Origin: Ethanoligenens harbinense YUAN-3
GTDB taxonomy: Bacteria > Bacillota > Clostridia > Oscillospirales > Ethanoligenentaceae
Direction: 5' to 3'
NCBI RefSeq assembly: GCF_000178115.2
Contig: NC_014828.1
Coordinates: forward strand, 705,501 to 769,500
DNA: 64,000 nucleotides
In this document: positions 73 to 8,096 of the stretch, piece after piece
How the letters are laid out: every line of letters begins with the position of its first letter
Numbering within the stretch: the stretch's first letter is position 1
Notes under the pieces: model-generated
Databases searched by the model: none
What the model was told of the DNA's origin: nothing
What the model saw: the letters and a program-made list of their open reading frames with translations, nothing else
Translations under genes and position numbers: made by a program

Positions 73-186
73 GGCGCGCCTGGTTTTGAAAAGGCGGGTT
101 TTTATCATGGAAAAGCGCATTTTCCACATACCCCCCGATCGCACGCATATACATATAGCGATACGATCACGTGAGGGGGATTTTTA

Positions 187-417
187 GTGAAAGGCATTGT
201 GGAGGAACGGGCCGTGGAACTGGGTGAATATATTATTGCGCACCAGTCCACGGTACGAGGCGCCGCCAAAGAATTTGGAATCAGCAAATCTACCGTACAT
301 GCGGCAGTGACGAAATGGAACGTTTTGCATGGACGATCGTATAAGAGAATCAAAGTGACACAAAGGTCAGGCGGAAATGGTGCATTGCAAAGGCCCTGCC
401 GCTATCACCAATCGTGA
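187..417 (+). CDS. spoIIID: spoIIID 5' part, interrupted by a skin-like element
   Basis: SpoIIID is the small mother-cell DNA-binding regulator that represses part of the sigma-E regulon and activates sigK. The GTG start at 187 follows GAGGGGG with a good spacer. Residues 1-38 match the SpoIIID helix-turn-helix region, including the signature EFGISKSTVH. From codon 39 (nt 301) the protein stops resembling SpoIIID and runs through element-derived sequence to a stop at 415-417, so the unexcised reading is only 76 residues. The missing C-terminus is found intact and in frame at 6997-7131. The gene is therefore split by inserted DNA rather than simply decayed. The unrearranged product has the recognition helix but lacks the basic C-terminal helix needed for DNA binding. 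Confidence 0.93.
   Translation: MKGIVEERAVELGEYIIAHQSTVRGAAKEFGISKSTVHAAVTKWNVLHGRSYKRIKVTQRSGGNGALQRPCRYHQS
275..322. other. attL-like left junction of the spoIIID element
   Basis: The hexamer GTACAT (295-300) encodes Val-His of SpoIIID and is repeated at 6991-6996. Left of it is spoIIID coding DNA. Right of it (301-322, ending GGAACG) is element DNA that mirrors, imperfectly, the element DNA just inside the right junction (6971-6990, beginning CGTTCC). This is the pattern expected of a serine-recombinase attachment site with a central dinucleotide core, here probably CA at 298-299. Confidence 0.85.
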
Positions 418-481: not shown

Positions 482-883
482 TTAAATACTCATACGGGCG
501 AGTTTATCTGCTTTGTTATGGCAAAGCATTTCCCATTGGCATCCTCCACAGATAGAACGTATAGTGCCCCGGCTAATTATGTGGGAGAAAACCATCTGTT
601 TGAAATCTGTCCATTTGAGGATTTGTCCGGCATGCAGATGGCAGGCGGCCAATACGGCTCTGTCAAATCGGACAACGGTTTTTTGGTGGATACATTGATT
701 GTTCCGGATATTTGGGCATTCGGAACAGATCACATCTTTGCCGGTTACAAGTTGAATTTGTGCGGAGTTATCGAGCAAATTGATCACCGCTTGCATGTTT
801 TGGATAAAAGAAGGTGAGTATCCTTTCCCTTCAAAAAAGGCAATGCAAACACCATGGTGAGGATGTAGTTTATAATTGAACAT
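482..883 (-). CDS. DUF1284 domain protein, second gene of bioY unit
   Basis: A 133-residue cysteine-rich protein with the DUF1284 pattern: an N-terminal HPHHG motif, then GKGYSPSFIQNM, a central Cys pair (SECPN) and a C-terminal ICGGCQWEMLC cluster. The conserved His and Cys residues suggest metal or Fe-S binding. The family function is unknown to me. The gene overlaps the end of bioY by 14 nt, so the two are translationally coupled and share the biotin-regulated promoter. In other Firmicutes this family occurs next to various transporters. A role in biotin or cofactor uptake is only an inference from position. Confidence 0.85.
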   Translation of the reverse strand: MFNYKLHPHHGVCIAFFEGKGYSPSFIQNMQAVINLLDNSAQIQLVTGKDVICSECPNIRNNQCIHQKTVVRFDRAVLAACHLHAGQILKWTDFKQMVFSHIISRGTIRSICGGCQWEMLCHNKADKLARMSI

Positions 884-1430
884 GGCTTGACAACCTTTTT
901 ACAAGGAATATGGAAATTGCCATTTTGATCAGATCTGGAATGATGAATGGAAACACACACCATCCAAGAGTGGCGATCAAGCTGACGGCACCGGATTTCT
1001 GTGAATAAACGACCATGAACCAAACGGTGCCAAACGCGTAAACAGTCAGAAGACCTACTGCCATTGCAATGATGGTAAACAATAATTTTGTGCCAAGCAA
1101 TTTCGTAATCAACCAGTATACAAGTGCCAAAAACACAAAACCGATGATGTATCCGCCGGTTGGCCCTAACAAGGCACCGATGCCTCCGGAAAATCCGGCA
1201 AATACCGGTATGCCGATGATGCCAAGTAATATGTACACCAGAACCGAAACCGTACCACGTTTCCCTCCCAATAATCCGACCGTACAAAAAATAGCAAAGG
1301 TCTGCAAGGTAAAGGGGACGATACCCGGGATGGAAATCCATGAGCAAACGGCGATCAGGACCGCAAACAATGCGATATAGACGGTGGCGGCGGTTCTTGG
1401 ATGCGCGTACGTTCTACTTGTCATGATCAT
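870..1430 (-). CDS. bioY: Biotin transporter substrate-binding subunit BioY
   Basis: A 186-residue, strongly hydrophobic protein with about six membrane segments. It has BioY hallmarks: the N-terminal segment ending in PGIVPFTLQTF, the GxRG loop, and the GPTGGYIIGF motif that lines the biotin site of the ECF S-component. It binds biotin in the membrane and would work with a shared ECF energizing module encoded elsewhere. The start ATG follows GGAGGAGG. The promoter and a BirA-type operator lie directly upstream (1456-1510), so expression should fall when biotin is plentiful. Being cargo of the spoIIID element, it would be lost only from the mother-cell chromosome if excision is confined there. 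Confidence 0.95.
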   Translation of the reverse strand: MIMTSRTYAHPRTAATVYIALFAVLIAVCSWISIPGIVPFTLQTFAIFCTVGLLGGKRGTVSVLVYILLGIIGIPVFAGFSGGIGALLGPTGGYIIGFVFLALVYWLITKLLGTKLLFTIIAMAVGLLTVYAFGTVWFMVVYSQKSGAVSLIATLGWCVFPFIIPDLIKMAISIFLVKRLSSHVQL

Positions 1431-2797: not shown

Positions 2798-4105
2798 ATG
2801 CAAGATACTGTCACACTTCCCAAGAAAGTCTATAAGGCTCTGATTATTGCGGCTGGAGTCTGCACTCTGGCTTATCTGACCGCCACCAGCCCCTTTTCGG
2901 GTAACTGGTGGCCTTTTCTTTTTCTGTGTCTTCTTGCCATCGTTACGGAAACGCAGACTATTCTAATCGGTGCGGTTGGATTTTCCATCACCATCGCGGT
3001 AATCCTCTGTGCCATGCTCACCTGCAATATTACGGAGACGGCGTGGATCTCCGCTCTTTCGGTGCTTGGCACGTATTCCAGCGGCAGAGACCGGCGAAGC
3101 TTGACCATCTTCAACATACCGGTTTCCGCCACGCTGTTCAACGCTTCTAGCTATGAACTGAGCCTCCTGGCGGCCTATGCGGTCTACCGGGCTCTGGGAG
3201 GCTACATTCTTCCACTTGGCATTTCTTTCAACACTGTGATGCGGGATATAAACGGGATCGCACTGCCGCTGATCGTCTCCATTTTCGTTTTTGTTATGGC
3301 CGACACCGTGATCGTATCCATTTTTATGTACCTTCGGTACCGGGAAAACTTTGCAAAGATTTGGGTATCAAACCTGCCCCGAATGGTGATGAGCACTTTT
3401 TTTGTGGGGCTCATCGGCATCATCATCACGGCGGTCTACATAGCCTACGGCTGGTTTCTGGTGTTGGTGCTGTTCGTGCCGTTTTTGCTGGCCCGCTATG
3501 TTTTCAGCATGTATAAAGACCTGCAGGAAAACTATCTGCAGACCATCACCAGCCTTTCTACGGCCATTGAAACCAAAGATTCCTATACCAACGGCCATTC
3601 CCGCCGCGTGGAGTTTTACAGCGGGATCATCGCCGTGGAGCTTGGCCTGAGCTCCAGGCACTGCCAGATGCTGCGCTATGCGGCACTGCTCCACGATATC
3701 GGGAAGATCGCCGTCGATGAAAGCATTCTGCATAAAGTTGATCCGCTTACGAAGGAAGAAATGGAAGTGCTCCGACGCCACCCTGCCAACGGCGAGCATA
3801 TCCTCGAAGAGATCAAGTTCCTCTCGTGTGCGGCCAAGATCATCCGCTCCCACCATGAGTGGTACAACGGGGAAGGCTACCCGGACGGGCTGTCCGGCAA
3901 GGCGATCCCCCTGGAAGCGCAAATTCTTGCGGTGGCGGACAGCTATGACGCGATGACGTCCGACAGGCCCTACCGCCGTGCTTTCAGTCACGAGGAGGCC
4001 ATGACGGAACTTTTTGCATGCGCAGGGAGCCAGTTTGCTCCGGAAATCGTTTCCGCTTTCGAAAAAGCCATGAAAAAAAGAGGGGACAAGCCATATGTTA
4101 TTTGA
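2798..4105 (+). CDS. Membrane HD-GYP domain protein (probable c-di-GMP phosphodiesterase)
   Basis: 435 residues. Residues about 10-235 form roughly seven membrane segments of the MASE-like sensor type. Residues about 245-430 form an HD-GYP domain with LHDIGK (HD pair), SHHEWYNGEGYPDGL (second His pair plus the GYP motif) and ADSYDAMTSDRPYR. Family members hydrolyse cyclic di-GMP to pGpG or GMP with a metal centre. AAGGGAG lies just before the ATG. The last codons overlap the DUF5317 gene by 11 nt. The membrane part implies sensing of an envelope or membrane-soluble signal, which is unknown. Confidence 0.93.
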   Translation: MQDTVTLPKKVYKALIIAAGVCTLAYLTATSPFSGNWWPFLFLCLLAIVTETQTILIGAVGFSITIAVILCAMLTCNITETAWISALSVLGTYSSGRDRRSLTIFNIPVSATLFNASSYELSLLAAYAVYRALGGYILPLGISFNTVMRDINGIALPLIVSIFVFVMADTVIVSIFMYLRYRENFAKIWVSNLPRMVMSTFFVGLIGIIITAVYIAYGWFLVLVLFVPFLLARYVFSMYKDLQENYLQTITSLSTAIETKDSYTNGHSRRVEFYSGIIAVELGLSSRHCQMLRYAALLHDIGKIAVDESILHKVDPLTKEEMEVLRRHPANGEHILEEIKFLSCAAKIIRSHHEWYNGEGYPDGLSGKAIPLEAQILAVADSYDAMTSDRPYRRAFSHEEAMTELFACAGSQFAPEIVSAFEKAMKKRGDKPYVI

Positions 4106-4697
4106 TGCGGCTGTATGCGGCCTGTTGGTGGGCATCCTGGCAGGGGGCAGTTTTAAGCATTTGCTTGAAATGCCGCTTCGGCACCTGTGGCTTTTGGTGG
4201 GCTCCGTTCTGGTCAGCCAGCTCCCGCGCATTATGTTCATCGCAGTGGCGCTTTCCCGCCTCGGCACGCCCGGCGCCGTCTGCTTCGCACTTGTTCGCTA
4301 TGGGCTGCTGCTCGGGTTCGTGGCGGTCAACTACCGGTGCATTTCGGTGGATATCATTGGCGCCGGCGGCGCACTCAACATGCTGGTCACATTGGCCAAC
4401 GGCGGCCGGATGCCCGTGGTGGCGAGTGCAATCGGCGGAAGTTCGCCGCGGTATGCCGAAAACGAATTGCTCAAAAGCGGACAGATTCTGAACTATACGC
4501 TGACGGATGCCCACACGCGTCTCGCTTTCCTATGCGACCGGTTGGAAATCCCGTTTTATGACTGGCTTCTCCGTCGCGTCCATTATTATCTCAGCATCGG
4601 CGATGTTTTGATTGCCGTGGGCGTTTTTCTGTTGATCGTAACGCTTATGAAACCGACGCGGCTGAAAAAGCTGCGAAGAGGAAAAACAGGCGGTTGA
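4095..4697 (+). CDS. DUF5317 family membrane protein
   Basis: 200 residues, with membrane segments at about 5-20, 27-55, 62-85 and 170-190. The central LNMLVTLANGGRMPV motif typifies the DUF5317 family, whose function is unknown. The start overlaps the 3' end of the HD-GYP gene, so translation is coupled. Similar HD-GYP plus DUF5317 pairs occur in Firmicutes, suggesting that the two membrane proteins act together. It is the last gene of the operon. Confidence 0.85.
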   Translation: MLFDAAVCGLLVGILAGGSFKHLLEMPLRHLWLLVGSVLVSQLPRIMFIAVALSRLGTPGAVCFALVRYGLLLGFVAVNYRCISVDIIGAGGALNMLVTLANGGRMPVVASAIGGSSPRYAENELLKSGQILNYTLTDAHTRLAFLCDRLEIPFYDWLLRRVHYYLSIGDVLIAVGVFLLIVTLMKPTRLKKLRRGKTGG

Positions 4698-5139
4698 GTG
4701 TGCAATGCCGGCATGCGGCAAGCAAATCAAAGTCGCATGCGCTTCTATCCGGCTGGTGCCGCGGACTGCCCCGGATGCAGGGCTGGAAACGAACGTTTTG
4801 TGCGGGCTATGGCATAAAACACAGACCGATATGGACAAGGGTCTTTCTGTTACTTCAGAAAGGCCCTTGTTGCATTGCTGGAGGGGTGGGATGAGGGGGT
4901 TGCGCATATCGTTTCTCTCGTGAAAAAAGCGTATGAACCTTTGAAATACGAAAGGCATGTCTACCCTGTGCGGTGGAAGAAGGCAAAAAGGCAAAAATCA
5001 GCGAACCGTTAAAACATGAAAAGAGCAAAGCTATGACAAGCAGCTAAAGCGGCTGAAAACCGCCACTCTGCCGCATATGCGGCGAAAAGGCCGGCAGCCC
5101 ATACAAGTCGGCGCCCATAAACATTCCCGGTCACGGCAC
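4698..5139. other. Non-coding stretch inside the spoIIID element
   Basis: No gene is supported here. It contains the hairpin at 4835-4870 and a 30-codon frame starting GTG at 4920 with no ribosome site, probably a remnant or chance ORF. Base composition is mixed, and the stretch ends at the sigma-E-like promoter at 5140. Confidence 0.5.
4835..4870 (+). terminator. Hairpin after the HD-GYP/DUF5317 operon
   Basis: ACAAGGGTCTTTCTG (4835-4849) pairs with CAGAAAGGCCCTTGT (4856-4870) with one mismatch and a 6-nt loop. The tail is poor in T, but the stem is long and sits between two operons. It probably ends the HD-GYP operon. Confidence 0.6.
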
Positions 5140-5168
5140 GCATATTCCAGATGCTGGAATAATACAAA
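5140..5168 (+). promoter_or_regulatory. Sigma-E-type (mother-cell) promoter of the recombinase operon
   Basis: GCATATT (5140-5146) fits the sigma-E -35 consensus KMATATW exactly. After a 14-nt spacer, AATACAAA (5161-5168) matches the -10 consensus CATACAHT at most positions. No good sigma-A promoter is seen. Initiation near 5174 would leave a leader of about 23 nt before the GTG at 5197. It would place the recombinase in the same cell and at the same time as spoIIID. Confidence 0.65.
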
Positions 5169-5196
5169 TGGACAGGGAAGGGGGCGTCGCGCTGCT

Positions 5197-5373
5197 GTGA
5201 AAACACAAAAACTGAACTTCCGGTTCCACAATCCCAACACGGCAGAGGCGGCTGCCGGCTACATACTGGATATTTTGATTGAGGCAAACAAAGCAAAGCT
5301 GGAGCAGGCCGTACAAACGGCCGCAAGCTCATTTGAACAACAGATACGGATTCAAAAGAGCCGTTCCGCGTGA
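5197..5373 (+). CDS. Small protein upstream of the recombinase; candidate directionality factor
   Basis: 58 residues from the GTG at 5197, with AGGGAAGGGGG upstream. It begins with a short basic segment, then FRFHNPNTAEAAAGYILD and an amphipathic helix. I recall similar short proteins immediately upstream of serine recombinases in Clostridia. A large serine recombinase normally needs a small partner to excise rather than integrate. Being in the same operon, 89 nt before the recombinase start, and inside the element, this is the best candidate for that factor. The role is inferred. Confidence 0.6.
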   Translation: MKTQKLNFRFHNPNTAEAAAGYILDILIEANKAKLEQAVQTAASSFEQQIRIQKSRSA

Positions 5374-5462
5374 ATGGCCCTTTTTGTTGCTTTCCCGGAG
5401 CATGCAGACCGTGTAATGAAGATGTGACAGAACGAACGGAAAAACACAGAAAGGCAGAAGCC

Positions 5463-6998
5463 ATGCACATCGCCGCCTATTGCCGCGTTTCTACGGACAA
5501 GGCCGACCAGCTCAACAGTCTGGAGGCACAGAAACGCTTTTTTGCCGAATACACGGAAAAGACCGGCCATGCGCTGGTGCGCCTGTACGCGGATGAGGGC
5601 ATTTCCGGCACCAAAATCAAGAAGCGCAGGGAGTTCCAGCGCCTGATGCGCGATGCGGAGACCGGCCTGTTCGATATGGTGGTGGTCAAGGACATCTCCC
5701 GTTTTGCGCGCAACACGGTCGATCTTTTGCAGAGCATCCGCAAGCTGAAAAGTCTTGGCATCGAGACGCTGTTTCTTACGGCCAACATGACCTCGATGGG
5801 CAACAGCGAATTCGTGCTGACGATTTTCGGGGCGCTGGCGCAGGAAGAGAGTGCCAACACCTCCAAGCGTGTAAAGTTCGGCAAGAAGCTGAACGCCGAA
5901 AAAGGCCGCGTGCCGAACATCGTGTTTGGTTATGACAAAACGCCCGGCGATTACTTCAACCTCTCCGTCAATGAGGCGGAGGCCGCCGCTGTGCGGCAGA
6001 TCTATCACTGGTATGCGGAGGAGGGCTACGGCGCGTCCAAAATCGCCAGAATGCTCAATGCGAAAAGCCTGCGCACCAAGCGCGGCTGTATCTGGTCGCA
6101 GAACGCCGTCTGCCGCATCCTGACAAACGAGCTGTACGCCGGCAAGATCATCAACGGCAAGCAGGAAGTCGCTGATTTCCTGACGGGCGTGCGCGCCGAA
6201 AAGGACGAGACGGAATGGATGGTGACCGACCGCCCCGACCTGCGCATCGTCGCGCCGGAGCTGTTTAAAAAAGCCGGGCAGGTCATGCGCGAGCGCGGCA
6301 AAACCTTCAAGGTGAACAAGGAGCGGCAAAGCAACAAGTATTTGTTTTCCACCCTCATCAAGTGCAAGGAGTGCGGTTGGTCGTTCCGGCGCTCGGTGCG
6401 TACTTATAAAAATACGTATGTTCGCTGGGTGTGCAGCGGGCACAACGGCAAAGGGGCGGATTCCTGCCCGAACAAAACCGGTGTGGATGAGGACGCGCTC
6501 GTCGGCGCGCTGAACGCCTATTTTGCAGAGGTGCTCAAGTCCCGGAAGAACATCGTCCGGTATGTGGTAAGCGAGTTCAACCGGCTCTACAAGGCAAAAA
6601 GCGACCATGCGGAATACGGCCGGGAATTGCAGCAGAAGCTTACACGGCTTCAGAGGACACGCCAGAAATACATGGACCTGTACGCCGACGGGTTGATTTC
6701 CCGCGAGGAAATCAATGAAAAAATAGGCGGCATGCGCGAAGAAGCCGAGCGGCTGGAAAACGATCGGAAGCTGGCGGAGCTGAACATCGACAAGAGCGAC
6801 CGGTTGGAGGGCATTATTCGCAAGACGTTCCAGACCATCGAGAGCATCACGGACGTGCGCCAGCTCACCAACGCCCAGCTCAAGCAGATTATCCGGAAGA
6901 TCGAGGTGGACAAGGACGGCAACGTGGACGTCCACCTGCGCCTGCTGGGTGATCTGGGTTTGAATCAGACCGTTCCGATTCGTGACAGCGGTACATAA
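5463..6998 (+). CDS. Large serine recombinase of the spoIIID element
   Basis: 511 residues from the ATG at 5463 (AAGGCAG upstream; the frame extends further 5' without homology). Residues 1-140 form the resolvase catalytic domain, with YCRVSTD carrying the nucleophilic Ser and VVVKDISRFARN carrying the conserved Arg. Residues about 160-260 form the recombinase domain. A zinc ribbon follows (CKECGW...CSGHN...SCPNK), then a coiled coil at about 385-455. This is the SpoIVCA/phage-integrase type that cuts two short att sites through a 2-bp core. Its stop codon (6996-6998) overlaps the right junction, placing it at the very end of the element as in sigK/skin. It probably excises the element to rebuild spoIIID. 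Confidence 0.95.
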   Translation: MHIAAYCRVSTDKADQLNSLEAQKRFFAEYTEKTGHALVRLYADEGISGTKIKKRREFQRLMRDAETGLFDMVVVKDISRFARNTVDLLQSIRKLKSLGIETLFLTANMTSMGNSEFVLTIFGALAQEESANTSKRVKFGKKLNAEKGRVPNIVFGYDKTPGDYFNLSVNEAEAAAVRQIYHWYAEEGYGASKIARMLNAKSLRTKRGCIWSQNAVCRILTNELYAGKIINGKQEVADFLTGVRAEKDETEWMVTDRPDLRIVAPELFKKAGQVMRERGKTFKVNKERQSNKYLFSTLIKCKECGWSFRRSVRTYKNTYVRWVCSGHNGKGADSCPNKTGVDEDALVGALNAYFAEVLKSRKNIVRYVVSEFNRLYKAKSDHAEYGRELQQKLTRLQRTRQKYMDLYADGLISREEINEKIGGMREEAERLENDRKLAELNIDKSDRLEGIIRKTFQTIESITDVRQLTNAQLKQIIRKIEVDKDGNVDVHLRLLGDLGLNQTVPIRDSGT

Positions 6999-7020
6999 AG
7001 ATGTTTCGGAACGGTTAAAA
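6971..7020. other. attR-like right junction of the spoIIID element
   Basis: Second copy of GTACAT (6991-6996). Element DNA to the left (CGTTCC at 6971-6976 onward) mirrors the element DNA right of the first hexamer (to GGAACG at 317-322). Joined as in an excised circle, the 48-bp site is an imperfect palindrome with 17 of 24 half-site positions matching, centred on the dinucleotide CA. DNA to the right (from 6997) is spoIIID coding sequence. Confidence 0.85.
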
Positions 7021-7131
7021 AAGCTCAACCCCCAGTTGTATATAGAAGTCAAACACGTGTTGGAAGTCAATAAAGCCCAGAGGCATATCCGCGGAGGCAT
7101 GGCGACCCGCCGGAAATATCGGCACGAGTGA
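6997..7131 (+). CDS. spoIIID: spoIIID 3' part (C-terminal 44 codons)
   Basis: Read in the frame of the Val-His codons at 6991-6996, this stretch encodes KDVSERLKKLNPQL, then EVKHVLEVNKAQRHIRGG and MATRRKYRHE before a TGA at 7129-7131. It is the characteristic SpoIIID C-terminus, including the basic helix that contacts the minor groove. It has no start codon or ribosome site of its own, so it is silent until joined to codons 1-38 at 187-300. The joined protein would be 82 residues, the usual family length. It is easy to miss because it overlaps no ATG-initiated frame. Confidence 0.93.
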   Translation, partial: KDVSERLKKLNPQLYIEVKHVLEVNKAQRHIRGGMATRRKYRHE

Positions 7132-7805: not shown

Positions 7806-8096
7806 ATGCAGATGTTGGCGGCCACGGTTTCTGCCGGCATTGGGCACTACCTGCTCTATGGCGGCATCGCCGTGCTGTGCGGGCTGCTCATTCTGTTGCT
7901 TCGCAACCCGCGCGCACTGGGAAAATGGGCGCTTGGCGGCGTCGGCGGCTGTGTGGCGCTTTGGGCCGTGAATGCGGCGGGCGCTTTCACCGGTGTAAGC
8001 GTCGCGTGCAATCTTTGGACGGTGGGGGCGGCGATTGTGCTCGGTTTGCCCGGCGTTGTAAGCCTGTTTTTTCTCAAACTGCTGCTGCGGATGTAA
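7806..8096 (+). CDS. bofA: Pro-sigma-K processing inhibitor BofA family protein
   Basis: 96 residues with three hydrophobic segments, ending in the BofA-type pattern NLWTVGAAIVLGLPGVVSLFFLKLLL. BofA holds the SpoIVFB protease inactive in the outer forespore membrane until a forespore signal arrives, so it acts late in the same mother-cell pathway that SpoIIID enters through sigK. The start follows AGGAGAGG. It is probably co-transcribed with the DUF2508 gene and ends at the terminator at 8271. Confidence 0.88.
   Translation: MQMLAATVSAGIGHYLLYGGIAVLCGLLILLLRNPRALGKWALGGVGGCVALWAVNAAGAFTGVSVACNLWTVGAAIVLGLPGVVSLFFLKLLLRM

Follow-up and report, generated by a model that had tools for sequence, protein, structure and literature searches.

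Several sporulation genes have been reported as interrupted, namely sigK, spsM, spoVFB, gerE and yabG. In Bacillus subtilis, SP-beta lies in spsM; its recombinase SprA is vegetative, and the time of excision is set by the recombination directionality factor (RDF) SprB, which is made from a mother-cell promoter, i.e., a sigma-E/K promoter 20 nt before the sprB start codon (PMC4191935). In the C. difficile skin element of sigK, the recombinase CD1231 is transcribed from a sigma-A promoter and the RDF CD1234 (72 aa) from a sigma-E promoter, which restricts excision to the mother cell; SpoIIID also activates the RDF gene, forming a coherent feed-forward loop (PMC5025042). In the B. subtilis skin, skr overlaps spoIVCA and the two are co-transcribed under sigma-E and SpoIIID. 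Further sporulation-gene elements excised by serine recombinases are gin in gerE, vfbin in spoVFB and yin in yabG. No report of an interrupted spoIIID was found in a search of open-access papers.

Here we describe an interruption of spoIIID in Ethanoligenens harbinense YUAN-3, within a contiguous stretch of 64,000 nucleotides (the window). From its sequence context, the sigma-E-type site at 5140-5168 is likely to be a promoter from which the interrupting element expresses a 58-aa RDF, encoded by a monocistronic gene.

An element of 6,696 bp splits the only spoIIID gene

The complete genome (3,008,576 bases) has a single spoIIID, which lies in two pieces with no intact second copy. The gene and the element that splits it comprise the following features.

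126-153, plus strand: sigma-E-type promoter of spoIIID, ACATACC-N13-CATATACA
187-300, plus strand: spoIIID 5' half, codons 1-38 (TIGR02844 positions 3-42; PF12116), ending at the core GTACAT (295-300)
870-1430, minus strand: BioY transporter, element cargo
1900-2529: unknown 209-aa protein, element cargo
2798-4105: HD-domain membrane protein, element cargo
4095-4697: DUF5317 protein, element cargo
5463-6998, plus strand: large serine recombinase, 511 aa (Pfam Resolvase, Recombinase and Zn_ribbon_recom above cut-off)
6991-7131, plus strand: core GTACAT (6991-6996) and spoIIID 3' half to the stop codon (6997-7131; TIGR02844 positions 35-79)

The recombinase adjoins the right end of the element and has its resolvase, recombinase and zinc-ribbon domains in the order of a large serine recombinase. 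No phage structural genes were seen among the element ORFs checked. Just 3' of the spoIIID 3' half lies bofA (7806-8096), a regulator of sigma-K processing.

The first-pass annotation had proposed that excision yields an intact spoIIID, and the two junctions agree with this: they have GTACAT in common, and joining them there in silico yields a SpoIIID of 82 aa that contains the conserved STVHKDVSERL. The same operation restores a full-length SpoIIID in 17/17 loci in which both cores were found. A crossover at CG near 312/7008 was rejected, as it does not restore the conserved HKD, which GTACAT does.

The highest-scoring sigma-E-type site of the window

Upstream of the recombinase, the following features were identified.

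5140-5146, plus strand: sigma-E-type -35, GCATATT, exact match
5161-5168, plus strand: sigma-E-type -10, AATACAAA, found by pattern and scored with the sigma-E matrix
5143-5161, no strand: inverted repeat TATTCCAG-ATG-CTGGAATA with perfect 8-bp arms, overlapping both -35 and -10 and absent from the first-pass annotation
5197-5373, plus strand: 58-aa ORF with a GTG start, candidate RDF

A pattern search of the window finds GCATATT-N14-AATACAAA a single time, on the plus strand at 5140-5168. The -35 agrees with KMATATT in 7/7 letters and the -10 with CATACANT in 5/7 defined letters (mismatches C1 to A and T8 to A), so that the earlier description of a full -35 and a close -10 stands; the spacer of 14 nt is inside the 13-15 nt expected of sigma-E promoters. 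The two letters at which the -10 departs from the B. subtilis consensus count against the site, and both are tolerated in the lineage, where A occupies position 1 in 17% and position 8 in 40% of host sigma-E sites.

These host sites come from a two-block matrix trained on the regions upstream of spoIIID, spoIVA and spoIIIAA in about 30 genomes of the same order, the window's own spoIIID being left out, in place of a hand-made B. subtilis scoring scheme, which was dropped. The matrix converged on [TG]CATA[AT][TC]-N14-CATAnA-[TA]T, with a spacing of 14 in 91% of sites. Over both strands of the window it ranks the 5140 site first (15.6 bits) and spoIIID's own promoter at 126 second (12.3 bits), at levels where first-order Markov sequence of the window's dinucleotide make-up would give 0.017 and 0.15 sites per 128 kb, respectively. 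The genome has a sigma-E gene (TIGR02835, 357.5 bits, above cut-off). The site thus looks like a real, sporulation-specific promoter of the sigma-E type, as first annotated, and we infer that sigma-E binds it.

Recognition by sigma-K or another factor instead of sigma-E is very improbable. The -10 letters CATA are common to sigma-E and sigma-K, and many relatives have AC inside the -35 (GACTATT) at a spacing that sigma-K could use; however, the window's GCATATT has no such AC, its spacing of 14 and extended -10 follow the host sigma-E matrix, and sigma-K acts later than the stage that needs SpoIIID.

As to the inverted repeat, its outer TATT/AATA are given by the promoter letters themselves, leaving only CCAG/CTGG as extra, and a role as a conserved operator was rejected since the repeat is not evident in relatives.

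The site accompanies the small ORF and not the recombinase

The 5140-5168 site ends 28 nt 5' of the GTG at 5197, and a gap of 89 nt separates the 58-aa ORF from the ATG of the recombinase at 5463. The first-pass annotation had assigned the promoter to the recombinase, whose appearance under sigma-E would time excision. Such an operon would resemble that of the B. subtilis skin and would fit the tandem order of ORF and recombinase and their 89-nt gap, but the following features lie between the two genes.

5360-5385 (stem 5360-5378), plus strand: terminator-like hairpin over the ORF stop codon, with T-run (fold -12.5 kcal/mol, z -2.6)
5387-5417, plus strand: sigma-A-like recombinase promoter, TTGCTT (5387-5392) and TGTAAT (5412-5417), at the position homologous to the TATAAT of relatives
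5419-5434, plus strand: att-like box AAGATGTGACAGAACG, resembling the right half of the spoIIID attachment site with one mismatch in the window

GTDB genomes were scanned with the recombinase, and the best-scoring 80 of 250 loci were used; their recombinases are 70-75% identical to that of the window, they come mostly from Lachnospiraceae and Oscillospiraceae, and they are not independent samples. Among these best 80 of 250 loci, 71 have the small ORF, next to the recombinase or at a distance of up to 8.6 kb, and in most of them TATT-N14-CATA is found about 26-66 nt 5' of the ORF start, wherever the ORF sits. After de-replication of the loci by k-mer, the 40 non-redundant sequences that precede the small ORF have a median best score of 11.6 bits, as opposed to 0.1 in dinucleotide shuffles (p = 1.8e-25), and a spacing of 14 in 87.5% of sites. 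Upstream of the 41 recombinases whose ORF is far away or absent, the median is 4.3 bits vs 2.8 in shuffles. In 30 non-redundant small-ORF promoters, information is concentrated at TATT and CATA and almost absent from the spacer; most relatives have xxCTATT at -35 and CATAGNNA at -10, unlike the textbook letters. A similar upstream site accompanies the small ORF on four IMG/VR contigs found in a separate search.

A hairpin at the ORF end occurs in 31 of the 71 loci (18/38 adjacent and 13/33 distant), vs 3.7% of shuffles. Upstream of the recombinase, relatives have TATAAT and then AAGATGTAACAGAACG, a repeat of the right half of the att site at spoIIID; in the best 80 of 250 loci, 66 have this att-like box with at most four mismatches, and TATAAT stands just before it in 56 of the 66. 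The box coincides with the point at which transcription of the recombinase gene presumably starts. It may there serve for repression by the recombinase itself or by SpoIIID, given that the SpoIIID motif of C. difficile is similar.

Since the sigma-E-type site stays with the ORF when the genes are apart and a terminator-like hairpin lies between them in the window, timing is better assigned to a directionality factor. Transcription of the recombinase as an operon from the 5140 site is therefore improbable, and of the original proposal the timing by sigma-E is retained and its route, through the appearance of the recombinase, is not. In the window, the recombinase promoter looks weak because its -10 is TGTAAT and its spacer to TTGCTT is 19, and a simple scan of 4600-5600 passed no sigma-70-type site, both of which favor the operon; read-through from the 5140 promoter into the recombinase may occur here.

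The 58-aa protein as a candidate directionality factor

The ORF has no family in Pfam, NCBIfam or PHROG, a sequence search against solved structures gave only weak matches to unrelated helical proteins, and no sequence relation to SP-beta SprB was found. Counting against an RDF, it has neither a family nor a solved homologue that would mark it as such by homology. The protein might instead be a regulator or other accessory factor, in keeping with this lack of homology to a known RDF or family and with a structure model, an extended N-terminus followed by one long helix, that is not diagnostic. However, we find this unlikely, since the ORF accompanies the recombinase at any distance, its size is like that of SprB, Skr and CD1234, and its promoter is of the same kind. 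The resemblance of the arrangement to SP-beta and the C. difficile skin leads us to read the 58-aa protein as an RDF that is expressed from a sigma-E promoter, the 5140 site; by this analogy it probably tells the recombinase to excise, at a time given by sigma-E.

Split spoIIID genes among gut clostridia

Directly behind the recombinase, the spoIIID 3' half is found in 76 of the best 80 of 250 loci, which makes the present element a member of a class of spoIIID-intervening elements and no lone oddity. As judged from these sequences, such elements appear to be a widespread class in gut Oscillospiraceae and Lachnospiraceae. Three loci (L006, L007 and L052) have close relatives of both the recombinase and the ORF, and a promoter of this kind as well, but lie outside spoIIID.

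Among 297 sampled genomes of the order, 266 have spoIIID, which is split in about 20 as judged by partial matches; it is intact in a genome of the same genus (G001) and one of the same family (G003). The small ORF tracks the split gene, being present in 12 of 20 genomes with a split and 3 of 246 with an intact spoIIID (Fisher p = 2.6e-13, 266 genomes). Eight split-spoIIID genomes have no small ORF, and at least three of these have more distant recombinases: those of G278, G136 and G059 fall into the same clade with 43-54% identity, and the split spoIIID loci of these genomes (L215 in G059, L206 in G136 and L207 in G278) have no recognisable member of the small-ORF family. Three genomes of one genus have an RDF-like sequence near an intact spoIIID (L217, L218 and L219, in G209, G197 and G269); in L217 and L218 it is a fragment about 180 nt upstream of spoIIID in the same direction. 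The sequence could be a scar left by an element since lost, or else a leader that was captured.

The host of the present element is probably asporogenous. No match to spoIIP was found in the genome, which has a sigma-K-like gene just under cut-off, and the strain is listed among non-sporogenous strains without spoIIM and spoIIP (Galperin et al. 2012, PMC3533761). As spoIIP has no match and the literature calls Ethanoligenens non-spore-forming, this host may never operate the switch, and the promoter could be a functionless relic. We give this explanation some weight but consider it rather unlikely: the sigma-E gene scores above its family cut-off, and there is no sign of decay, given that the recombinase, the ORF and both spoIIID halves are open and the promoter is the best in the window. 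The switch may be idle in this host and should be working in sporulating relatives.

Proposed switch and possible feedback by SpoIIID

We propose that a vegetative-type promoter of its own supplies the recombinase, which, alone, keeps the element integrated. Once sigma-E is active in the mother cell, the RDF would be made, and excision would be confined to that cell. With the RDF present, the recombinase would join attL and attR through the GTACAT core that they share, releasing the 6.7-kb element and rejoining spoIIID, which also has a sigma-E-type promoter.

Two further features might make this switch self-limiting. The first lies at the start site of the RDF gene.

5168-5177, plus strand: ATGGACAGGG, window copy of a block (consensus TGGACAAAG, 30 promoters) just 3' of the -10; candidate operator

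Column information in the 30 non-redundant promoters shows the TGGACAAAG block to be conserved directly downstream of the -10. It fits WWRRACAR, which we take to be the B. subtilis SpoIIID motif: at the ATGGACAAAG block (+1), the motif is found in 13 of 30 small-ORF promoters vs 4% in shuffles, and in 0/26 spoIIID, 0/17 spoIVA and 2/21 spoIIIAA promoters of the host lineage. The C. difficile SpoIIID motif is KRTAACARK (PMC5025042). This the TGGACAAAG block does not fit, for which reason a SpoIIID operator here counts as a lead; the block is a possible operator, perhaps for SpoIIID, and a SpoIIID site there would be expected to repress, because it would overlap the start site.

The second feature lies in the recombinase, whose stop codon TAA is, at 66 of 77 loci, formed across attR (ACA/TAA/AG, the AA coming from spoIIID). 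Once the element is a free circle, the recombinase frame runs on past the left junction to give a tail of mostly 14 residues (CGSDEMERFAWTIV in the window, YGSDKIERxxWxI in other loci), and the frame is open in most of 20 loci. In the window, these junction features are at 6990-6998 and 295-342. As predicted from this arrangement, integration would truncate the recombinase.

In the resulting feedback, sigma-E would switch on the RDF, excision would rebuild spoIIID, and the new SpoIIID would bind the TGGACAAAG block over the RDF start site and shut the RDF off, while the recombinase, losing the stop codon that spoIIID supplies at attR, would gain its conserved tail of about 14 residues in the circle. 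We offer this self-limiting switch tentatively, as a speculation that is more doubtful than probable.

Comparison with known systems

Spore formation by gut Oscillospiraceae and Lachnospiraceae bears on transmission between hosts, and a genome survey may misjudge spore formers if it records their spoIIID as absent or defective. A single small promoter and an excision assay with two proteins would allow a direct test of how the mother-cell program is wired.

The element is like SP-beta in having a presumably vegetative recombinase and a small candidate RDF under a mother-cell-type promoter, with the RDF as timer. In contrast, SP-beta is an active phage, and its target is a late polysaccharide gene. 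With the B. subtilis skin (SpoIVCA and Skr) it has in common a split gene for a sporulation regulator, a serine recombinase and a small RDF, here a candidate; there, however, the target is sigK, Skr overlaps SpoIVCA, and both need sigma-E and SpoIIID. The C. difficile skin likewise pairs a sigma-A-like recombinase promoter with a sigma-E-type promoter at the small candidate RDF. In the skin-like models, the RDF is under a mother-cell promoter, with SpoIIID as co-activator in two cases. As opposed to the C. difficile skin, SpoIIID is here the interrupted product and thus cannot be an activator before excision; since the spoIIID elements interrupt the co-activator, control must rest on sigma-E alone, and SpoIIID could only be a later brake. 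Finally, gin, vfbin and yin have other target genes and, as far as the papers say, were described from one strain or species each; elements in spoIIID, by contrast, are found repeatedly in gut clostridia of many genera.
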